Of a stretch of 34,023 bases of DNA, positions 3,207-21,248 are shown one piece after another. The notes under the pieces are model-generated. The model was not told the origin of the DNA. It made no database searches and saw only the letters and a list, made by a program, of their open reading frames with translations. Source of the stretch: a bacterium (lineage in GTDB: Bacteria > UBP6 > UBA1177); contig JAGCXM010000024.1 of the NCBI GenBank assembly GCA_017961325.1, positions 1 to 34,023 on the forward strand, written 5' to 3'. Positions within the stretch are counted from its first letter, which is position 1, and every line of letters starts with the position of its first letter. Made by a program: the position numbers and the translations under genes.

Positions 3207-6200
3207 TTAATCTTCAGAATCGCTGCCGCCTTCTTTGGCGTCTTCGATAAGAGCAAGAACTCTGAGATAATAAGCGCTCTTGGGAGAGAGTTCCTTTTTG
3301 AGTTTGCGGAGAATTTTGTTTGCGGAACTTGCATTTCCTGCCTGAATTTCGGCATAAGCCCTGTCATACATCGCACCGGCCGTCTTTTCAATCTCTTTGA
3401 GACCGTTTAAAGCCGGCTTGCTGTCGGAACTGATATAAAGCGCTTCGAAGAAATATTTCCTTGCTTCGGCAATATTTTCGTCTTTAAGCTGCTCCATCCC
3501 CTGCGCTGCAAGAGATTCAGCCTTAATCGAATTAATCTGCTTCGTGTAAGCGCTGTACTCAAAAGTCCTGTCTCTTTCTTCCTTGAATTCCCTTCCGACC
3601 GAAGAAGAAACCGATTTTGCCTTGAGAAGGGCGTCGACTTTAGCTTTGTACTGGTTGTCGATATTGTTTTTAGCCTGTTCGTATTTGACTTTTGCTGCTT
3701 CTTCCCTCTTTTCCGCCGCTCTCAGATTCGCTTCGAGCACAGCTCTTCTCTTTGCTGCCTCTTTTTCACGTATATCCTGAAGACTGTCCACCTTATTTTC
3801 CGTCGCTTCAAGATTTGCTCTGAGTTTCGCCTCTTCCTTACCACGCTGAGCGACAAAGGTTTTCGAACTCTTTTCAAGCTGGGCTATTTTTGCATTTATC
3901 TCTTTTTTGTCGGTCTCAGCCTTTTTCTCGTATTTTGCATAAACAGCCTGTTTTTCCTTTTCTATTGCATTTTCGTTGGCCTCTTTCTTGTTTTCGTTGG
4001 CCTGTTCGAGATCGCTTACTTTCTTTTCAGCTGCCACCTTTTTGTTTTCAAGCTGCGTTGCAAGGTTGTCTTTCGCCTTGTCGGAATTTGCGTTCGCCGC
4101 CTCAAGCTGTTTTTCAAGTGCGGCAAGCTGTTTCTTTTTATCGGCGGAAAGTTTGTTGTATTGAGCCTTTCTCTTCCTAGCCTTTGCGTTTCTATCGGCT
4201 TCCCGCTTTGCGGCACGGCTTTCAATTTCTTTAAGCTTTCTTGCCTTGCTTGCATTGATTGAAGCCTGTTTTTTCTTCATATCCTTTTCAAGAGCTGCCT
4301 TTTCCTGCTCGATTTTCTTCATTTCAGCGGTCAAAGTTCTCTTCTCAGAGTCCTTTTTAGCTTTGAAAGCAGCTGCTTCCTTTTTGACATCGGCGTCTGC
4401 CGCTTTCTGGTCGGCATCTATTTTTGCAAGATCAGCCTTGTATTTCTTTTCAAAAGAAGCTGTCTCTTTTGAGATGAATTTGTCGTGACCGTCTTCAAAT
4501 TTCGCAAGATCGGCCTCAGCCGCCTTTCTCTCTTTGTTGAGTCTTATCCATTGCGGATTTTTTTCATATTTTTCAATCTTGTCCTGAATTTCAAACATCT
4601 GCGATTCGAGCTTTTCAACTTTTTTAGCGCGCTCGGCCTGACCTTTGCTGTAGACGGATTCCGCCTTTTCCTCTGCCGCGCCTCTGTCGGATTCGAACTT
4701 GCGCTCGGCATCCTCTCTCTTTTTATCAGCAGATTCCTGATTTCTCGAGATTTTTTCTTCCTGTTTGTCATTGAAATCGCTTATTTCGCCGTCGATTTTG
4801 TCGATTTTGTCGGAATATGACGAAAGTTTAGCGTCAAAATCTTCGACCTTTTTGTTGAGAGCTTCTGTTTCCTCTTCAGCCTTCTTCTCAGCCGCTTCCT
4901 GATCCTTTGCATCCTGTTCCTCGGCTGCCGCTACGCTCTTCTCGAATTTTTCAGACTCTTTCTGTTCCTCAGCTTCGAATTCGCTTTCCATTTTTTCAAC
5001 TTCGTCAGTAAGTTTCTTTACCTGTTTTTCAAGGTCTGAATTCGATTTCTCAAGAGCCTGCAGTTTCGTCTCATACTCTTTTTCTGCAGCTTCAATATCT
5101 GCTTTTGCCTGTTTTTTAGCCTGATTAAGCTGTTTTTTGCGGTCTTTGTTACCCTGTTTGTACTTTTCTTCGATTGCAGCGATTTCGTCTTCAATCTCTT
5201 TTTTGTAAATTTCTTCAGCCGGACGCTCGTCTTCAAGCTGTTTGTTCAGACTTTCGATTTCGCGGTCGGTTTTATCAAGTTTTTGACGGTATGTCGCATC
5301 AAGATTTTCGATGCTGTCCTTCAAAGTTTCGATTTTTTTCTTGAGTTCCCTGTCCTGTTTCTTTTCGGCTTTACGCTGTTTTTCCTCGTTTTGCTCGAAC
5401 TTTTCATTGAGAACTCTCTGTTCGTCGAGTTTGCCGCTCATGGCATCTTCGAGTTTCCTCATCTCGCCGTCACGCCAAACGGAAATGTTCTTCATATCCT
5501 TTTTGACATTTTTGAAAGTACGTTTAGCCCTTGCGTAATCATCGCTTGTCGGCTCGTTGTACTTGCGTTTTTTATTGGTTTCCTTGATGAACTGAAGTTC
5601 TTTAGCACCTTTTTCCCGGAGTTCGAAATCTTTCTTTTCGACATTTTCAAGAGCTTTCGCAGCACCCGCGGAATCGCCGCTCTTCATCAGTGACTTCGCT
5701 TCATTAATAGCATCAACAATCTCGGTTGTCATATCGGCATACGCCAAATTATCCGATTTCTTGAAAAGAGCGACGGCCTCTTTGTCCTTACCTGCCTTGT
5801 ATGCTTTGAAAGCCGAGCGGAGGATCTCCCTCTTTTCGCGCTCTGTCATTTTCGGAGCTTCCTCTTCCTCCGCAATCTCATCTTCGCCGCCTTCCGAGGA
5901 AAGATCGCCGGTGACTTCGTTGAGTTTGGCAGCAACTTCCGAAGCCAGGTCCTCAGGATCGACGTCACTGTCGGCATTTACAACAGGTTTTGCAACGTTT
6001 TTGCCGTTATTAGCAAAGATATGAAGCGTTACCGAATAGCCGTCATCAGTGGTTTTTATGACCGGAAAAAGAACGAAATCGGCTTTTTTGTAGGATTTTG
6101 TCTCCTTTCTTGCACAGACAAGTTTTGTGCCGCACTTTTTGAACTTGGCCGCTGCCGCATGATTAATATCGGAAAGTGTTACATTTTTTACGACATCATA

Positions 6201-17395: not shown

Positions 17396-17809
17396 ATGCG
17401 GAAAATCTTCTCGTTTTTAGCGTTATTATTCTCTTTTACCTTTCTTTTTGCCGGCTGGGGTCCGGAACTCTGTGAAGACAAGACCTGTTCAGGTCACGGA
17501 AAATGCAAGGAGGACGGAAAAGACGAATGGTGCGTCTGTTATGAAGGCTATATTGCAAAAGGAATGAAGTGCGTTCAAGGCTGCAGCGGCGTTACGTGCA
17601 GCGGTCACGGAACCTGCTCAGTCGTCAGCGGTTCGGAAGCGTGCAGCTGCGAAGCCGGATTTCATGCTTCCGGATTGAATTGTATCCTGAATGAAGCTTC
17701 GACGTCGGACACTCTTGCGATACTCAACGAAAATGAGTGCTACGGCACCGGAAACTGTCATTACAGGTTTATTTTCGCGACGGATGCCTTGCTCGTTGTT
17801 TTAATTTAA
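17396..17809 (+). CDS. short secreted EGF-like repeat protein, probably 3'-truncated
   Basis: The product has 137 residues: a signal peptide (FLALLFSFTFLFAGW) and two EGF-like modules with paired Cys and the core CSGHGKC / CSGHGTC followed by CVC..G / CSC..G. The start has GGAGG five bases upstream. After the second module comes a fragment with NECYGTGNC, then a hydrophobic end (ATDALLVVLI) that does not look like family sequence. The stop lies inside the spacer of the restriction-gene promoter. I therefore infer that the original 3' part was lost or frameshifted when the restriction-modification block arrived. Such modules usually form the N-terminal stalk of larger surface proteins. Whether it once joined the RHS gene beyond the block cannot be decided here. 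Confidence 0.7.
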   Translation: MRKIFSFLALLFSFTFLFAGWGPELCEDKTCSGHGKCKEDGKDEWCVCYEGYIAKGMKCVQGCSGVTCSGHGTCSVVSGSEACSCEAGFHASGLNCILNEASTSDTLAILNENECYGTGNCHYRFIFATDALLVVLI

Positions 17810-17823
17810 ATTATCTTTATAAT
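17796..17823 (+). promoter_or_regulatory. promoter of the restriction endonuclease gene
   Basis: There is TTGTTT (17796-17801), a 16-base spacer and a perfect -10 TATAAT (17818-17823). The expected start near 17830 leaves a leader of about 64 bases before the ATG at 17894, which argues against the in-frame start at 17822. Confidence 0.6.
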
Positions 17824-17893
17824 GACGATGTGTTCGGTTCGATGGCGGCAAGAGATGAAAAAAAATAATGAGAAATATGAAAGGAGTTTTTTT

Positions 17894-18775
17894 ATGCAAA
17901 CGAAAACGCAATGGTTGGAAAACTTTCGTTGTTATGCTGAAAAAATGGAAAGATCTTTATTCACATCACAGAAAAGCAAGAAAGATAAGACAAGTGAAAT
18001 AAACAAACTTATCAAGTCTTACAGTGATGAAAAAATATTACTTGTTCAAAAACAAGCGATCTCTGAAAAATGGGATAATGAACGCTTGCTTAACGAAATA
18101 CTCAAAATAACCTATGTTTCATATGTTGTAATGCTTGAATGCAGAAATAAATTGAGAGCTTACGAGTATATGGATTTTTCTCGTCGTATAGGTGAATTTT
18201 GGGAACCTTTTTGTAAACTTGCTTTTAAATATCCTCTCAAGAAATTGCAGATTATAGAACCTCGTAATTTTGAACAGGTTAAGCAGAATATCAAAAGAAA
18301 TGCAACGGAATATATAGATTCGTTGGAACTTTCATATGAAATAAAAGAAGAACTCAAAAAACTTTATGCAATTCCTTGGACACTAGTTAATAGCGGCGGA
18401 ATAGACCTAGCTTTGGATTTGCATTTTAAGCAAGGTGGAATTTGTTATAATTGCGATTTCAAAAGCGGTTTTCATTCAAATGAAAAAGGTAACACGAACA
18501 GATTGTTGCTTGTCGCCAGTATATACAAATATCTGGGTGAAAAAACATTGTTGTTCGTTAGAGAAGAAAACAATAATAATTATTTTCAAACATTGAAAAA
18601 TTCAAATTATTGGGAAGTTTATTGTGCTGCTGATTGTTATTCGGCAATAAAATCCTTTACAGGATTTGATATTAGAGCATGGCTGAACAACAATGTCAAT
18701 TGGGAACAAGATATTAGTCAAGAATTGAAAACTCATCTCCAAGCAAATGGTTTGCTAAAGTACTTGACATGGTGA
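17894..18775 (+). CDS. probable type II restriction endonuclease, PD-(D/E)xK fold
   Basis: The product has 293 residues and is predicted to cut unmethylated DNA as partner of the methyltransferase that follows. The evidence is a PD-(D/E)xK-like site: an acidic residue in GGIDLALD near residue 167, then CDFKSG near residue 187 with Asp-x-Lys. A conserved-looking GFHSNEKGN loop follows, as in other type II enzymes. The N-terminal 150 residues are helical. The ATG at 17894 has AAGGAG seven bases upstream. Base composition is clearly more AT-rich than the core genes to the left, consistent with transfer. I cannot name the specificity from the sequence; the CTTAAG motifs downstream are only a hint. 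Position next to a methylase is the strongest support. Confidence 0.75.
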   Translation: MQTKTQWLENFRCYAEKMERSLFTSQKSKKDKTSEINKLIKSYSDEKILLVQKQAISEKWDNERLLNEILKITYVSYVVMLECRNKLRAYEYMDFSRRIGEFWEPFCKLAFKYPLKKLQIIEPRNFEQVKQNIKRNATEYIDSLELSYEIKEELKKLYAIPWTLVNSGGIDLALDLHFKQGGICYNCDFKSGFHSNEKGNTNRLLLVASIYKYLGEKTLLFVREENNNNYFQTLKNSNYWEVYCAADCYSAIKSFTGFDIRAWLNNNVNWEQDISQELKTHLQANGLLKYLTW

Positions 18776-18793
18776 TTGATAAAGAGTATGTTG

Positions 18794-18824
18794 TCTTAAG
18801 GTTTGTCTTAAGCTGAATCTTAAG
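18794..18824. promoter_or_regulatory. three TCTTAAG motifs at an exact 12-base period before the methyltransferase
   Basis: TCTTAAG occurs at 18794, 18806 and 18818. Each contains the palindrome CTTAAG, and the last runs into the AAGGAGGG ribosome site of the methyltransferase gene. The remaining bases of the 12-base units differ (GTTTG, CTGAA, GAGGG), so the spacing rather than the whole unit is conserved. This fits an operator or a self-methylated control site. Confidence 0.5.
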
Positions 18825-18835
18825 GAGGGACACCC

Positions 18836-20410
18836 ATGAAAGATATTTTTTGTTCTTATTATACAAATTCAGATGAAATAACCTCATATATGGTTAATCG
18901 TCTTATGCTTTCAAACAATGATGTTGTTTTAGAACCTTCGGCAGGTGAAGGTATTTTTATTGACGAAATCTTAAAGAACGATATTCCTGTACAGATTGAT
19001 GCATTAGACATTGATAAAAAGGCTATTTCTACTCTTAAAAGAAAATATCAAGGAAACAGCTCAGTCACTGTCAGAGAAACCGACACTCTTCTTGATGAAC
19101 ATCTTGATGCTTTTGGCATTCCAGAAATATGGCTAAAAAAAACAGATACATTGGTGGATACCCAACTTGACTGTTTTGAAATTATTGGCGGTCATTACGA
19201 TAAAGTTATCGGGAATCCCCCCTACGGCGCTTGGCAGGATTACGAAAAAAGGGATTTGCTTAAAAAGAAGTATCCCGGACAATATGTGAAAGAAACTTAT
19301 TCATTATTTTTGCTTCGCTGTGTGTCCGTTCTTAAAACCGGTGGACGTTTATCTTTTATTATTCCTGATACTTATATGTTTTTAAATTTGCATTCAAAAT
19401 TAAGGAAACTGTTACTGACATCAACAAAAATAGAGGAAATAATAATATTCCCGTCAAAATTCTTCCCAGGTATAAGTTTCGGTTATTCCAATTTGTCAAT
19501 TATAACACTTGAAAGGACGGAAAAAGAAGTTGCTCTTGACAATACTATTAGAATTGTTAAGGGTTTTCGCTCTGTGACAGAATTCCAGTCGCTATGCCTT
19601 AAAGAAAAGTTACCCGCGCATTTGTCTACATATATGCTAAAACAATCAGATGTTTTAAATTGCGAGCAGCATAGGTTTATTCTTGCCGATACTAGTGTTA
19701 CTGACACAATAAATAAGGCCTCTACTTCCCTTGGAGATGTTGCAGATGTAGTAACGGGATTTTACACTGGAGACAATAAAAGATTTATTCGGGTGCTTGA
19801 CGATAATGTAAAAGGAAGTAAAGGGTATGATAAAATAGATCCGTCTTTGATATTTCCATGTACTTCTATTAGTGGAATTGAAGATGTTTCCGAAGGATAT
19901 GTTCCTTATGTTAAAAGTGCTTCAAGTAATCGATATTACAGGCCAAACGACGAATGGTTCGTTAGGTGGGACAAAGAATCAATAGATTTCTATAATGGTA
20001 ATAAAAAAACCCGTTTTCAAAATTCATCATTTTATTTTCACACTGGAGTAGCGATTCCTATGGTCAAATCAAGCAAAATAAGAGCTTTCTTGCTTGAAAA
20101 TCGTGTTTTTGACCAATCTATAGTTGGTATATTTCCTAAGGACTGTTCAAAACTTTATTATATTTTAGCCATTATGAACTCAGACATTATAAATAGTCTG
20201 ATTCACACTATTAATCCTACAGCTAATAATTCTGCAAACTATGTAAAGCAGATACCATATTTTGAACCATCACAAGAAATTATGGATGAAATTAGTGATA
20301 AAGTTAAAACAATCATTGACTATTATAGACAAGGCTCAATTTCTGACGGAGAAACCTTGCATCGTGAAATAAATATTTTTATCAAACAAATATATGATAA
20401 ATGTTTGTAG
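18836..20410 (+). CDS. type II N6-adenine DNA methyltransferase (gamma class, TaqI-like)
   Basis: The product has 524 residues and transfers a methyl group from SAM to adenine within a recognition site. Motif I is LEPSAGEGIF (about residue 32) and motif IV is NPPYG (about residue 126). The catalytic half is followed by a long C-terminal target-recognition region, the order typical of gamma-class enzymes such as M.TaqI. A stretch around residues 83-118 contains a near-duplicate (TDTLLDEHLDAF / TDTLVDTQLDCF), unusual for the family. The ATG has GGAGG seven bases upstream. It lies 60 bases after the endonuclease, same strand and same AT-rich composition, so the two form a restriction-modification unit. 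Its stop codon directly abuts the truncated RHS gene. Confidence 0.9.
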   Translation: MKDIFCSYYTNSDEITSYMVNRLMLSNNDVVLEPSAGEGIFIDEILKNDIPVQIDALDIDKKAISTLKRKYQGNSSVTVRETDTLLDEHLDAFGIPEIWLKKTDTLVDTQLDCFEIIGGHYDKVIGNPPYGAWQDYEKRDLLKKKYPGQYVKETYSLFLLRCVSVLKTGGRLSFIIPDTYMFLNLHSKLRKLLLTSTKIEEIIIFPSKFFPGISFGYSNLSIITLERTEKEVALDNTIRIVKGFRSVTEFQSLCLKEKLPAHLSTYMLKQSDVLNCEQHRFILADTSVTDTINKASTSLGDVADVVTGFYTGDNKRFIRVLDDNVKGSKGYDKIDPSLIFPCTSISGIEDVSEGYVPYVKSASSNRYYRPNDEWFVRWDKESIDFYNGNKKTRFQNSSFYFHTGVAIPMVKSSKIRAFLLENRVFDQSIVGIFPKDCSKLYYILAIMNSDIINSLIHTINPTANNSANYVKQIPYFEPSQEIMDEISDKVKTIIDYYRQGSISDGETLHREINIFIKQIYDKCL

Positions 20411-21248
20411 TTTTATACTAAATTCCACATTAAAAATCGCAACACTTTCAAAACAGACAACCGAATATGACAAAATCGGCCGCGCAGTCAGAAGCTGCCA
20501 GTTCGACGTTGCGCAGCCTTCAAACAAAAGGTGCATAGAGACTGAGCATGACGCATTTGGAAACATCGTGAAAAAAGAAGAAGCGGTTTATGATCAAAAC
20601 AATCAAAAACGAAATGATGTTCATGGCGAAACCCGTGAAATCACCTATGACCATAGAAACAGACCGCTGACAGTCACGGTTGACGGACTTAAGACCGAGG
20701 AATATTCATACAACAACGGTATTACGGGTGGTAATTATTTTGGTTACGACACAATCAAAAACAAATATAAGGATATCGTTCCACTCATAACCTACAAAGA
20801 CAAATGGGGCAGAGCCGCGAAAAGCGTTGATCCGTTCGGAAACGAGACGGAAACAACTTACGAAAGCAGCTATTCAGACAATATCACTTCACAAATTACG
20901 ACGACTTCATCAAGTGTAAAAACAGCTGAAACGACATGGACTTACGACGATCTGGACAGGAAATTAACAGAGACAAGAAAGCAGTTCATTCCCGGTTCGG
21001 AAAGTACGACAAATGTAAATCATGTGACCTACTGGGATTACGACAGCATCGGCAATGTCGTTTCAGTCGAATCGAGTGACGGCACGAAACAGACTTATTC
21101 CTACGACACCCTGAACAGGCCTGTAGAGACGGTAAATTATGAAAAAATCAATTCCGAAGATGTTAAACCTCGTCTTCCAAAAACTTCTACGACAACACAA
21201 CAGGCAGGCTTTTCCGCACGGAAACAACAAGAAACAGTCAGACTATAA
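20411..21248 (+). pseudogene. RHS/YD-repeat gene, 5'-truncated first fragment
   Basis: RHS-type YD-repeat sequence begins within about 15 bases of the methyltransferase stop, with no start codon or ribosome site, so the N-terminal part of the gene is missing. YD repeats are clear: TEYDKIGRAVRS, ETEHDAFGNIV, TWTYDDLDRKL, TYWDYDSIGNVVSVESSDG, QTYSYDTLNRPVETV. The frame runs into a stop at 21248. RHS sequence (FYDNTTGRLFRTETT, DYGFDTFGRVTAV) continues from about 21183 in the -1 frame, so a one-base deletion near the A-run at 21179-21183 separates this piece from the next. Intact RHS proteins form a hollow beta-barrel shell around a C-terminal toxin. This copy could only be expressed as a fragment. 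Confidence 0.8.

Follow-up and report, generated by a model that had tools for sequence, protein, structure and literature searches.

Three copies of the palindrome CTTAAG are arranged with an exact period of 12 bp in the 60 bp gap between the stop codon of a restriction endonuclease gene (R) and the ATG of a DNA methyltransferase gene (M). The locus raises two questions: whether CTTAAG is the recognition site of this restriction-modification (R-M) pair, and whether its clustering in front of M has a function. Both were addressed in the window, i.e. the whole stretch of 34,023 nt of DNA that was analysed, and in homologous loci and related genomes. On balance, the locus is read here as a compact Type IIP cassette of AflII specificity, the sites in the M leader being most likely autoregulatory.

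Gene content and origin of the cassette

The longest open reading frame of R begins at 17822; the coordinates of the gene itself and of all other features are collected in the table. R matched the PADLOC model REase_II PDLC03405 (E 6.8e-66) and gave no match to Pfam and NCBIfam. The residues D175...D188-x-K190 were invariant across six homologues, and the AlphaFold model of R (pLDDT 88) had EcoO109I as its best, though weak, match in the PDB (E 0.004). R is a PD-(D/E)xK nuclease, and its catalytic motif (D175, D188, K190) is as found in orthodox Type II systems. M matched the Pfam family Eco57I (1e-21) and the PADLOC model MTase_II, and its closest solved relatives in the profile alignment were BrxX/PglX (PDB 9ewz, 8c45) and M.TaqI. 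M is a stand-alone m6A methylase of the PglX/TaqI class with CTTA(m6A)G as its predicted product. The organization of nuclease and methylase as separate adjoining genes is likewise that of orthodox Type II systems, and the pair is retained in four homologous loci (L002, L186, L187 and L165).

Regulatory methylases of the SsoII and EcoRII type carry an N-terminal helix-turn-helix (HTH) on M. No HTH domain match was obtained for M, the conserved LEPSAGEG motif of which begins at residue 32, and no small HTH gene of the kind that encodes a controller (C) protein was found in the cassette, where 123 bp precede R, 60 bp separate the genes and about 50 bp follow M. Since a C gene would find no space in the cassette and M is without an HTH, control by a C protein and control by an HTH on M were both excluded. 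M does not belong to a BREX cluster either, being of half length and located beside a Type II nuclease and RHS genes.

The same cassette was found in one further species of the genus (G003) at the same junctions (L057). The flanks, which diverge exactly at the cassette edges, are about 85% identical to those of G003, and flanks and genomes overall are 77-85% identical. Judging from these sequence identities, the transfer of the cassette between the two members of the genus is recent. The cassette interrupts an EGF/RHS (YD-repeat) gene, with flanks at 17396-17770 and from 20462 onward; in G003 the two flanks correspond to the two ends of an uninterrupted open reading frame of >1,338 aa (L044 3-4016), and about 3.7 kb of the gene are replaced.

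Features of the R-M cassette and of the leader of M (positions in the window)
Feature	Position	Strand	Remarks
Mobile R-M cassette	17771..20461	+	3 mismatches in 2,691 bp vs G003; inside EGF-RHS gene
TATAAT, possible -10 of R promoter	17818..17823	+	by eye
R, restriction endonuclease gene	17894..18775	+	293 aa from ATG behind Shine-Dalgarno AAAGGAG
Possible sigma-70 promoter of M	18764..18792	+	TTGACA, 17 bp, TATGTT (10/12)
CTTAAG copy 1	18795..18800	.	sequence and word search
CTTAAG copy 2	18807..18812	.	sequence and word search
CTTAAG copy 3	18819..18824	.	sequence and word search; overlaps Shine-Dalgarno of M
Shine-Dalgarno AAGGAGG of M	18822..18828	+	7 nt before ATG
M, N6-adenine DNA methyltransferase gene	18836..20410	+	524 aa, NPPY motif, TaqI/PglX-like target recognition domain

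Each of the three copies is preceded by a T, and the sequence-only reading had correctly placed the resulting TCTTAAG at 18794, 18806 and 18818, with a spacing of 12 bases between R and M. The last copy, which it had described as touching the ribosome site, in fact shares AAG with AAGGAGG, and an exact search returned only the two further CTTAAG that it had noticed in the window by eye (20688 and 32786). The total of five in the window is ordinary (mean of 7.8 in shuffles); the clustering is the unusual part.

The recognition site of the R-M pair

R and M are carried by 2 of the 15 genomes of the genus (G000 and G003). These two genomes have the lowest CTTAAG densities of the 15, with 47/Mb in G000 and 26/Mb in G003 compared to 51-118/Mb in the 13 non-carriers, for which the chance under exchangeability is 1/105. 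With GAATTC as control word, the CTTAAG/GAATTC density ratio separated the carriers (0.090 and 0.063) fully from the non-carriers (0.178-0.357). Stretches sampled from both carriers and five non-carriers, partly consisting of N and with rates recomputed using ACGT only, were used for a ranking of hexamers, in which CTTAAG came first for carrier-specific depletion both among the 64 palindromes (observed/expected 0.28 and 0.16 vs 0.64-0.91) and among the full set of 2,080 hexamers (strands merged). One-base variants (CTTAAA, TTTAAG, GTTAAG and others) occurred at normal frequency. The rank of CTTAAG is not a selected one, because CTTAAG had been picked out in the R-M gap prior to the ranking. 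Avoidance of the own site in the host genome, a criterion for orthodox Type II R-M systems (PMC4687349), was thus found for CTTAAG. Since the cassette transfer is recent, a long-standing avoidance in both carriers cannot date from it unless this system or a different one with the same specificity was present earlier, and the simplest reading is that CTTAAG specificity in these lineages would be older than the present copy of the cassette.

A diverged pair (R 49% and M 42% identical to the pair in the window) is carried by a Bacteroidales genome (G386) whose 2.9 Mb contain only 7 CTTAAG, which places it lowest among 41 related genomes; the scope of counting in this genome was CTTAAG and the control word. 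When the 41 relatives were searched for R, after the CTTAAG counts had been seen, homologues were detected in three, namely in G386 (rank 1), G425 (rank 3, 4.4/Mb) and G406 (rank 8, 46/Mb), and R carriers differed from the rest with p 0.002 in a Mann-Whitney test (p 0.02 leaving out G386). The genome at rank 2 (G411, a relative of the genome harboring L002) contains only 8 CTTAAG in 2.5 Mb, and no R homologue was detectable in it despite this avoidance. Perhaps a system was lost there, since a lost system can leave its site avoided (PMC4687349); alternatively, an unrelated nuclease might share the specificity. In G365 and G406 an R homologue is present and CTTAAG is not strongly avoided, which for G365 is as expected for some recent acquisitions. 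CTTAAG is not depleted on a Klebsiella plasmid with a homologous pair (22 in 110 kb; 21 observed vs 25 expected in 108 kb).

Moreover, base-reading residues of M could be compared with those of BrxX from E. coli, which recognizes GGTAAG, methylates the fifth A, and reads A3' by Q784 and A4 by N823 (PMC11842806). In the profile alignment, which is distant, Q427 and N464 of M align with these two residues and are invariant in four family members, and R751 of BrxX, which reads G1, falls on Q395 of M. The residues of M would fit a site of the form xxTA(m6A)x in which position 1 is not G, and CTTAAG is of this form.

The sequence-only reading had proposed that CTTAAG could be the recognition site of the system, serving feedback by methylation, or a repressor operator. 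An operator of another repressor, with a recognition site elsewhere, would suit the even spacing and the placement downstream of a promoter-like sequence. It is nevertheless very improbable in view of the carrier-specific avoidance throughout the genome, the near-absence of the word in the second, diverged carrier, the lack of room in the cassette for the gene of such a controller, and an M without HTH match. Because of the carrier-specific avoidance, the near-absence in an independent carrier and the homology of base-reading residues to BrxX, a role as the site of the system is strongly supported, and CTTAAG is with high confidence the recognition site of the R-M pair. In the literature searched, no methylome with CTTAAG was recognised that could be tied to this R-M family. 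The assignment gives a specificity to a nuclease family lacking a Pfam or NCBIfam model, and the route taken, carrier-specific word depletion, is applicable to further uncharacterised R-M pairs.

The leader of M and its possible role

The possible promoter of M, matches of which quality were equally frequent in shuffled sequence, overlaps with its -35 the codons for the last residues of R and ends 2 bp before copy 1. If it is used, transcription would start at about 18799-18800, inside copy 1, and the three CTTAAG would span about -5 to +25 in addition to the ribosome site. No CTTAAG is located near the possible -10 of R. An autoregulatory circuit can be proposed from this layout. On arrival of the cassette, the leader sites would be unmethylated and M would be made freely; M would then accumulate, and would occupy and methylate the sites at about -5 to +25 and beside the Shine-Dalgarno sequence; the output of M would drop relative to R, the promoter region of which carries no such site. 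The promoter of M, the occupancy by M and the repression at the leader, as derived from position and precedent, are about equally balanced between being right and wrong. Precedents are CfrBI, LlaDII and AhdI; in CfrBI, the cognate site lies in the M promoter and its methylation lowers M transcription (PMC12707154, PMC3874152). For the three CTTAAG of the present leader to be cognate sites in a promoter, CTTAAG has to be the recognition word and the sequence at 18764-18792 a real promoter. If the array regulates M, it would form a minimal feedback circuit free of a controller. It is conceivable, though rather unlikely, that the array acts as a multi-step counter, in which M has to methylate or occupy several sites before its own synthesis is slowed at the level of transcription and possibly also at translation initiation. 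Such a counter would make the switch sharper and later than in the CfrBI arrangement without a controller protein.

CTTAAG may also be the recognition site while its cluster has no function. Copy 3 would then have come from a strong Shine-Dalgarno sequence, as TAAGGAGG within it is at the same time a near-perfect to optimal one, and copies 1 and 2 from a duplication of 12 bp, since TGTCTTAAG is common to both and either copy could have been generated from the other in this way; the sites would be tolerated because they are methylated by M. The absence of the cluster from diverged homologues agrees with this, as does the recent arrival of the cassette in the two hosts, which would have had no time for loss or retention of the sites. 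Chance statistics speak against it. Palindromic-hexamer triplets within 30 bp are rare, with 5 for all 64 words pooled in a 2.23-Mb sample of seven genomes of the genus; in the same sample, excluding the cassette, there was no further triplet of CTTAAG, and about 7e-5 such triplets are expected in the whole genome at its own CTTAAG density. The one triplet in question is formed by the cognate site itself, a word that this genome avoids, and no CTTAAG occurs in the 2.7-kb cassette beyond the three leader copies. A functionless cluster is consequently a serious possibility of lower probability than regulation. The leader was also considered as a tandem-repeat array, which was dropped as TRF found none.

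Conservation of the cluster, which the sequence-only reading had suggested to check, was looked at in the homologous loci. The cluster is identical in G003 (= L001), which is alone in sharing the cassette; as the transfer was recent, this identity is uninformative. Most of the diverged homologues are without the cluster, namely L002, L186, L187, L166/L170, L165/L169 and phage BSP10. R and M abut without a leader in L002 (3 bp) and L187 (0 bp) and overlap in L186, the M leaders of L168 and L170 contain no CTTAAG, and a Klebsiella phage-plasmid homologue (NZ_CP028544.1) has one CTTAAG 15 bp before the M start, the sole copy in its 7.8-kb locus. Since R and M abut without a leader in some homologues and other M leaders hold one CTTAAG, different dyads or none, the array is a feature of this cassette and not of the R-M family. 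In two Bacillus homologues, phage BSP10 (L005 5957-6060) and a viral contig (L169, about 3900-3990), an operator-like dyad, CTTATGATGAACATAAG, without CTTAAG lies beside the M Shine-Dalgarno sequence. R is truncated and M intact in phage BSP10.

Such dyads beside the M Shine-Dalgarno sequence (CTTATGATGAACATAAG and similar) would be in line with an action at the RNA level, where CUUAAG is self-complementary and base pairing of copy 1 with copy 3 could cover part of the Shine-Dalgarno sequence and tune translation of M. In the predicted fold, copies 1 and 3 do form a 10-bp duplex that takes in AAG of the Shine-Dalgarno sequence, but GGAGG is left free, the folding energy is no better than that of shuffles (z -0.3 and -0.8), and tuning of this kind does not need a cognate site. 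It is improbable, and an RNA hairpin as the main function of the leader was rejected on the z values. Among these readings, autoregulation of M through its own sites is the most likely.

Comparison with known systems

The system is a Type II R-M system of predicted AflII specificity with an unusual leader of three cognate sites, the specificity being derived from avoidance and residue homology. AflII is a Type IIP R-M system cutting C^TTAAG, and the likeness is that of the inferred recognition sequence. With BrxX/PglX of BREX, M shares the residues reading T3 and A4 of GGTAAG; M differs in its length of 524 aa, in standing alone and being paired with a Type II nuclease with no other BREX genes adjoining, and in the residue at position 1 (R751 in BrxX, Q395 in M). 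The phage-plasmid R-M system of Klebsiella/E. coli (R about 30%, M about 32%) has the single CTTAAG upstream of M in common with the cassette, whereas its R and M are convergent and its plasmid is without avoidance. A 70-aa HTH controller-like gene lies directly before its R (L004 3786-3998).

With regard to regulation, the genes of CfrBI diverge and their promoters overlap, whereas the genes are in tandem here and three sites are present. In LlaDII and AhdI, methylation of the promoter regulates expression, and only the M gene is affected (review PMC12707154); the same is proposed for M of the window. Unlike these two systems, the cassette has R and M in tandem in this order, three sites at 12-bp spacing and no controller gene, and its sites lie downstream of the possible -10 and reach the Shine-Dalgarno sequence.
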